DNA of 64,000 bases, taken from assembly GCF_019633745.1 (NCBI RefSeq), contig NZ_CP037968.1, forward strand, positions 1,866,789-1,930,788. Reading direction: 5' to 3'. The first letter of the stretch is position 1, and each line of letters begins with the position of its first letter. The notes under the pieces were generated by a model, which was not told the DNA's origin, searched no databases, and saw only the letters and a program-made list of their open reading frames with translations. Positions 15,793-16,713 of the stretch are shown here, piece by piece. A program made the translations under genes and the position numbers. The DNA comes from Methanofollis formosanus. GTDB lineage: Archaea > Halobacteriota > Methanomicrobia > Methanomicrobiales > Methanofollaceae.

Positions 15793-15875
15793 GCGAGAGT
15801 AGTGAAGCGGCCAAACACGGGGGACTCAAGATCCTCTCCCGTAGGGGTTCGTCGGTTCGAATCCGGCCTCTCGCA
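15793..15875 (+). tRNA. tRNA-Leu (CAA)
   Basis: Acceptor GCGAGAG pairs with CTCTCGC, discriminator A. The anticodon arm GGGGA-CTCAAGA-TCCTC gives anticodon CAA. A long variable arm (CTCCCGTAGGGGTTCG region) marks it as class II, and the T-arm is GTCGG-TTCGAAT-CCGGC. Length 83, CCA not encoded. tRNA-Leu genes are common integration sites, and an unusual gene-free element begins about 200 bases downstream. Confidence 0.9.
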
Positions 15876-16087
15876 TTTCTTTTAAATAGTGATTTGGGGA
15901 GGGCTCCCCCTCCCCTAATTCCACGCCCTCACCTCCCTCGCATAACTCCGATCGCAGAGTTTCCCCCACCCGTCACCCGAACAGTACACCGCCTTCCCCT
16001 CATTACCCCCATCGCAACGGCCCAGGTCGGTCCTCACCCGTGTGAACTCCCGGCGGTCCAGGACCCCCGCGAGCGGCAGGACCTTGT

Positions 16088-16122
16088 TTGCACGTGTGCA
16101 CCGGATTGCACCGGGTTGCACT
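16088..16122 (+). repeat. Left iteron array (TTGCACC type)
   Basis: TTGCACG at 16088, GTGCACC at 16096, TTGCACC at 16106 and TTGCACT at 16116: the last three are spaced exactly 10 bp, one helical turn. The array faces a matching one in opposite orientation at 16364-16405. Nothing coding is evident between 15876 and 16713. Confidence 0.7.
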
Positions 16123-16202
16123 CTGAAAGTGCCACCGAACGGGGGCATATTATATGCCTGTTTATCGATCGGAACGACCTCGTCGGGATCATTGTCCTCG
16201 TG

Positions 16203-16285
16203 TGCACCAGAACGCCGATCGCACCCACCCTCACCCGGAGACCCCGACCGATCAGGGGTGGTGGGTGCGTCCCCGTTCTGGTGCA
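16203..16285. repeat. Nested palindrome, 83 bp, cruciform-capable
   Basis: The outer arms TGCACCAGAACG (16203-16214) and CGTTCTGGTGCA (16274-16285) are perfect complements. The middle arms GCACCCACC (16221-16229) and GGTGGGTGC (16260-16268) are also perfect. The inner arms ACCCC (16241-16245) and GGGGT (16255-16259) close the top. The outer arms start with the same TGCACC word as the flanking iterons. An 18-bp perfect palindrome GAGAGAGATATCTCTCTC follows at 16298-16315. Confidence 0.8.
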
Positions 16286-16363
16286 ATAGAGTACTATGAG
16301 AGAGATATCTCTCTCTCTTCTCTCTAGAATAGGTACTCCGGGGCCGTTCTTCCGTCCCCCTGC

Positions 16364-16405
16364 TTTGCACGTTCTCAGTGCAACTTCGGTGCAACCCAGG
16401 TGCAA
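16364..16405 (-). repeat. Right iteron array, inverted
   Basis: On the minus strand TTGCACC-type words stand at 16377-16383 (AGTGCAA on the plus strand), 16388-16394 and 16399-16405 (both GGTGCAA), an 11-bp period. A plus-strand TTTGCAC at 16364 mirrors the TTTGCAC at 16087. Together with the left array this makes an inverted pair about 320 bp across. Confidence 0.7.
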
Positions 16406-16713
16406 ACGTGCCATCGTCCAGTGGGTCGGGGTCGGAGTCGCGATCGAGCCAGACATGCGCCCCCGCCGTCCGCCGCCGGGATCACGGGCACCCCTCCGGG
16501 ATCAGACCGACAGATATTACATCGTCGTGCGACGACAGAGACATGGCAGACCTCCTTGAACCGGTGTTGGCGCACGATTCGTTCCGGGGGCTGCCGTCTC
16601 TTCTCGTCAGAGATGGTTTTTTCATGGTTGTCGTACCTCGGTGCGGCCCGCCGAATGCCAAAAATCGTATTTTTATAATCTTCATTGCCCGGACGGAAAG
16701 ATGGCCCCCCGCC

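Follow-up and report, generated by a model that had tools for sequence, protein, structure and literature searches.

The chromosome of Methanofollis formosanus contains, beside a tRNA gene, a compact set of direct and inverted repeats, and this locus raises the question of what such a structure is and where it comes from. The repeats lie at positions 16088 to 16405 of the window, i.e., the whole stretch of 64,000 nucleotides that was analysed. In the preliminary description they were taken either for a binding platform of a replication, partition, integration or chromosome-organising protein, or for the relic of an element integrated at tRNA-Leu.

The six repeat words listed in that description are all present. 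They are GTGCACC, TTGCACC and TTGCACT at 16096, 16106 and 16116, and AGTGCAA, GGTGCAA and GGTGCAA at 16377, 16388 and 16399. Each array holds a fourth word, at 16088 (direct) on the left and at 16363 (also in direct orientation) on the right. The left array (16086-16121, plus strand) is formed by four direct TTGCACC-type words and is conserved across the copies of the family, including those that retain the origin only. The right array (16363-16408, minus strand) is formed by one direct TTTGCAC and then three inverted GTGCAA words. The centre (16203-16285) is composed of a lone direct iteron TGCACC, the GC-rich arms CGCACCCACC and GGTGGGTGCG, and a lone inverted iteron GGTGCA. Its description as a three-step perfect palindrome was generous: the 12-bp arms (16203-16214 and 16274-16285) and the 10-bp arms (16220-16229 and 16260-16269) are perfect, but the two arm pairs are out of register with each other and 42 of the 83 positions match the reverse complement of the segment. 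Next to the centre is an AT-rich core (16286-16337; 63% AT vs. 37% in the window), the proposed unwinding element, which contains AGTACT and the 18-bp palindrome GAGAGAGATATCTCTCTC; the latter, at 16298-16315, is perfect as described.

The clustering of these words is real and exceeds chance expectation. Counted with 5-bp words in place of 7-mers, the window copy has 12 TGCAC/GTGCA words in 371 bp, whereas 5000 dinucleotide shuffles contain 0.7 on average and 7 at most. In the intact copy of the same genome, simple 7-mer counts are not significant (p = 0.13), because the iterons are imperfect. A generic detector of at least three direct and at least three inverted 6-mers matches one place in the 64 kb, which is this structure, none in five shuffles and one in the reversed window. 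The earlier remark that nothing similar is seen elsewhere in the window holds, but it does not extend to the genome. The M. formosanus genome (2,965,921 bp) contains five further copies, partial or full, which brings the total to about six chromosomal copies, and the structure was rejected as a unique element on this search. The relatives also contain many copies, found in 11 of the 12 Methanofollis genomes, and the absence from all relatives that the preliminary description named as counting against it is not observed. Aligned copies follow one plan, with direct iterons, a spacer, a lone iteron with GC arms, an AT-rich AGTACT/GA-CT core, a second spacer and the right array.

In the intact copies, the structure lies in frame within the 3' part of a rep gene of about 900 codons. 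This in-gene segment is always 321 bp long and its reading frame is open; in six reps that were tested, the 50-bp stretch of the tail richest in AT ranks within the top 0.3% of the gene's windows. At the DNA level the TTGCACC version is nearly confined to Methanofollis, with one short match elsewhere. The protein is more widespread: matches to the Rep helicase are present in 88 of 150 Methanomicrobiales genomes and 28 of 35 genera. In relatives across Methanomicrobiales the same architecture, in a comparable arrangement, occupies the homologous place in rep with different iteron words. Circular plasmid contigs were also sought, and terminal overlaps were found in none of 19 whole contigs; a search for Rep in plasmid and phage records returned partial matches to the archaeo-eukaryotic primase (AEP) only. 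Two IMG/VR contigs of 39 and 42 kb (L105 and L106) have a match that is limited to the AEP-containing N-terminal part of the Rep family.

From the N-terminus on, the folds predicted for Rep from AlphaFold models are those of an AEP (PrimPol), an MCM-like AAA+ helicase and a winged helix, and a zinc ribbon forms the C-terminus. The model of the first domain has a pLDDT of 94 and a VIA Z of 16.8 to 6zp9 (S-2L PrimPol), with RepB' and PriS also listed, and its top Foldseek matches are all prim-pols; on these models, the N-terminal domain is of the AEP primase/PrimPol fold. The helicase part matches MCM AAA+ helicases in Foldseek (E 2.5e-10) and is preceded by conserved Cys/His residues. The HTH-type segment placed after it in the model is taken as the winged helix, and the C-terminus carries a CxxC...CxxC pattern in the sequences. 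Comparison of Rep with Pfam gave no match above the cut-off, NCBIfam gave no match and PHROGs gave no usable name.

The earlier statement that no gene overlaps the repeats is true of intact genes only, as the structure is placed inside a minus-strand remnant of a rep reading frame. The 3' remnant (15915-16482, minus strand) is open through the origin and corresponds to the C-terminal zinc-ribbon domain, with the cysteines partly lost (tblastn 70.8% to the intact Rep C-terminus); positions 15906-16478 have 84.6% DNA identity to the intact rep at G000:2682670-2685417. A remnant of the rep start (16472-16505, minus strand; 88% over 34 bp to L143 6656-6689) is deletion-fused to this 3' part, with a junction of short microhomology within 16472-16478. 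Next comes what is left of the sequence upstream of the rep operon (16497-16653, minus strand; 81.6% over 158 bp to L143 6058-6215). Judged from these alignments, the window copy is a near relative of the intact rep at G000:2682670 that has lost the rep core by two internal deletions and has kept the full origin. The winged helix is among the deleted parts, and therefore a working Rep cannot be made from this copy. Compared with the related remnant L039, the iterons are identical at 67 of 68 positions and the spacers at 95 of 121 (p = 4e-5). The L032 locus is orthologous to the site of the window copy (PEGA/acs flank).

The neighbouring tRNA-Leu (CAA; 15793-15875, plus strand) was identified with ARAGORN. 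The idea of a relic integrated there is right as to the relic, which is the rep remnant, and as to the adjacency, since about 40 bp separate the remnant from the end of the tRNA. An att repeat was not detected: the last 12 bp of the stretch tested for a direct repeat of the tRNA-Leu 3' end occur once in the 64 kb. The tRNA gene was rejected as the attachment site on the lack of a direct repeat in the 64 kb and on the fact that most other copies are not at tRNAs.

The connection between the repeats and Rep is given by the iteron words. The rep tails of several genera have their own words (TTGCACC, TTTCAGC, TTACAGC, TTGCAGC, TTGCAAC, TTTTCAT, ACTTCAA, CCTGCAA, TTCCGCT and TTCTGCA). These were assigned by k-mer enrichment; degenerate arrays occur among them, and roughly one rep in four gave no clear word. 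At least 15 word changes are placed on a tree of 34 reps. Six TTGCACC and six TTTCAGC reps of Methanofollis, interleaved on the tree, were compared. The alignment columns that separate the two groups number 0 of 618 in the core, 8 of 90 in the winged helix and 0 of 41 in the C-terminal zinc domain (p = 5e-8). Residues 743-744 are NG in 7/7 TTGCACC reps, including one that is not from Methanofollis, and 18/18 ..CAGC reps have SR there; overall, NG or NS goes with ..CACC and SR with ..CAGC. Residue 732 follows the first letters of the word in the Methanofollis clade: reps with H have TTG and those with Q have TTT. Thus, in a winged helix at about residues 700-790, the Rep at G000:2682670 (TTGCACC) has H and NG, and that at G000:399846 (TTTCAGC) has Q and SR; the hybrids L051 and L124, whose word is TTGCAGC, carry H and SR. 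The pairing at 743-744 also holds in Reps that had been set aside beforehand: L047-L049, from other genera and with H and N, have TTGCACC, and L116, L120, L122, L123, L131 and L133, with SR, have CAGC words. Five orthologues that lack the tail all have N and CACC words. Residue 732 is less regular in the set-aside and tail-less Reps (N, Q or H) and in Methanoregula (L, S or M). On these comparisons, winged-helix residues covary with iteron words in a residue-to-base specificity pattern. Joint recombination could add to the covariation, the winged helix being adjacent to the origin, but it is unlikely to be the whole cause, because hybrid words come with hybrid residues and other genera have the same pairing.

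As the architecture is kept while the words covary with winged-helix residues, the structure is best explained as the in-gene origin of Rep, with iterons on both sides of an AT-rich core. Very probably it serves a family of integrated Methanomicrobiales replicons as their replication origin, and the window copy is a deletion derivative with the full origin. Rep would bind and fire this origin. The winged helix would read the iterons, and Rep would thereby be assembled by the two opposed arrays on either side of the AGTACT/GA-CT core. We infer that the core then melts and that the fused helicase and primase are loaded onto it, perhaps with the assistance of the element's own Orc1/Cdc6. Within the binding-platform proposal, the sequence evidence thus favours a replication protein, and the partition, integration and chromosome-organising readings are without support. 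The replication platform and the integrated-element relic of the preliminary description, which as a whole is partly supported, are the same thing.

An Orc1/Cdc6 gene (identified by NCBIfam) is often near rep, at 0.2-33 kb from several reps, and the intervals contain defence genes. A type I-E CRISPR-Cas operon, from cas3 to cas2, is placed between rep and orc1 at 2697.6-2706.3 kb (G000:C1:2682344-2716933, L143-L145), and BREX genes (brxC, a pglX fragment and pglZ) between orc1 and rep at 902-912 kb (G000:C1:898648-917785, L141 and L142). Near 397-399 kb, the interval between orc1 and rep contains an RmrA-like gene and a type I methyltransferase fragment. An ArdC-type anti-restriction gene is found at 894413-895306, just outside the BREX interval. 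Two conserved small ORFs (167 and 81 aa), neither with a Pfam match, accompany the element orc1 in three elements of the same genome (L141 4712-5580, L145 and L146). By eye, nucleotidyltransferase-like (MNT) reading frames recur beside orphan origins or reps (L032, L041 and L147).

The window copy belongs to a large group of orphan origins. The 49 non-intact rep loci of the 12 genomes comprise 29 with the origin only, 9 with origin and core, 6 with the core only, 4 with the C-terminus only and 1 N-terminal locus; 3 of the 6 core-only loci (G001, G002 and G005) are of the tail-less type. Orphans are 318-323 bp long and most have stops in the old frame. Their identity averages 81.5% in the iterons and core, 49% in the main spacer and about 32% in the flanks, with a mean pairwise identity of 72.6% in the GC arms, and homology stops at the outer iterons. 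In four orthologous pairs whose ancestor, judged by the shared flanks, was already an orphan, the pooled identities are 243/272 for iterons vs. 361/480 for spacers (p = 1e-6; one pair alone is non-significant). Orphans probably act as DNA sites, because the origin-only copies outnumber other rep fragments and the iterons are conserved after the loss of coding; on this sequence evidence, selection appears to maintain such origins in the chromosome long after rep itself has been lost. Orphans with different iteron words also occur in tandem (L032 2300-3580, L034 2751-3359, L035 and L038), with three types stacked at G001:1741k, two at G002:278k and two at G002:1407k/G008:C86. The tandem pair of L034 (G002:C1:275824-282022) is some 2 kb away from a chromosomal orc1 that is conserved and has 27.5% identity to the element Orc1.

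Orphans, the window copy included, may instead be plain decaying relics in which the rep core was deleted first and the origin is not yet lost. Intermediates do exist, as the window copy, L027 and L039 retain pieces of the rep termini, and the zinc-ligand cysteines are lost in the window copy. This explanation is nevertheless rather unlikely: the core is about sevenfold longer, yet origin-only loci far exceed core-only loci; the spacers of orthologous orphan pairs change more than their iterons and core; and orphan homology ends at the outer iterons.

Alternatively, a resident Rep could act in trans on the orphans, which would then be live chromosomal origins or regulatory sites. A candidate for this role is a tail-less, origin-adjacent Rep paralogue, present in at least five Methanofollis species (G000, G001, G002, G005 and G010) at L147 7374-9680 (G000:C1:1563374-1565680), L127, L168, L169 and L128; its iteron origin lies downstream as non-coding DNA, and it is possible that this Rep is a domesticated initiator. 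Its words are mostly TTTGCACC, as in G000, which are also those of the orphans, and the AT-rich core is among the conserved parts. On the other hand, the word of the tail-less Rep has shifted to TTTACACC in G001 while the TTGCACC orphans there are unshifted, and we regard this alternative as unlikely. The chromosomal oriC was also considered for the structure and rejected, as such arrays are absent from the surroundings of the conserved orc1 at G000:2426705, of which 6 kb were examined.

A MITE-like transposable unit ending in the inverted iteron arrays would account for dispersed copies bounded by inverted arrays, but is highly improbable: 16 orphans lack a target-site duplication and share no flank longer than 6 bp, no transposase was seen among the neighbouring genes scanned, and the same architecture is found with other words at the homologous rep position across the order. 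That the region is a repetitive Rep coding segment kept for protein reasons can practically be dismissed, for although it is in frame in the intact genes, its peptide is poorly conserved, its DNA words persist in both orientations and past frameshifts and stops, these words change in concert, and non-coding copies contradict it.

The favoured, though unproven, function of the orphan origins is initiator titration or incompatibility: they would bind Rep in trans, as decoys or incompatibility sites directed against related elements. The preference comes from phage lambda, whose replication is blocked by an ectopic lambda ori carried on a plasmid, apparently through initiator binding alone (PMC4488673); that ori is on a multicopy laboratory plasmid, whereas the orphans are single chromosomal copies with a putative function. 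A firing origin, and not just a decoy, would also explain why the AT-rich core is conserved along with the iterons.

Several known systems resemble parts of this one. The Rep family was probably already described in 2014 as arCOG07809, a set of putative integrated elements of archaea including Methanomicrobiales (Mpal_2033 of Methanosphaerula palustris; PMC4158269), in which, by description, primase, helicase, HTH and Zn finger are likewise joined in one protein. The arCOG07809 helicase is called superfamily 1 there, whereas the fold predicted here is MCM-like AAA+; some members have an integrase and att sites, and origins or iterons are not mentioned for arCOG07809 (PMC4158269). The AEP-helicase replication proteins PrimPol-PV1/PrimQH combine an AEP, a Zn-binding domain and an ATPase, including MCM fusions, and their C-terminal winged helix was proposed to read the origin (PMC5862659). 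Unlike them, Rep has no Pfam match above the cut-off and no NCBIfam match, its origin is inside the gene and the recognition is backed by covariation. The lambda ori likewise has its iterons and the AT-rich segment beside them inside an initiator gene, gene O (PMC4488673), but the initiators are unrelated, and the lambda iterons lie on one side of the AT-rich segment while here two arrays are opposed. Chromosomal archaeal origins next to orc1/cdc6 are similar in having repeats near an Orc1-type gene, as do some copies here, and differ in that the window copy is not adjacent to one. The structure thus has two features of iteron replicons, namely an array of one word matched to what appears to be its cognate, a predicted DNA-binding initiator, and an AT-rich segment of putative unwinding, together with the lambda-type location inside the coding frame of the initiator. 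No description of the Rep origin, the word-residue code or the orphan origins was found in the freely accessible literature searched. These three appear to be new, whereas the protein family and AEP-MCM fusions in mobile elements are known.

The analysis supplies a candidate origin for a widespread replicon family of methanogens for which none was found described before, and offers a residue-to-base specificity pattern for a primase-helicase initiator. The parts may be of use in genetic tools for methanogens, a group with few of them. It is possible, though we propose it tentatively, that chromosomes store orphan origins of several specificities as inherited decoys against replicons with the matching Rep, an immunity that would be readable via the winged-helix/iteron code. 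The selected persistence of the orphan origins thus raises the question of whether hosts keep the origins of their parasites as decoys.
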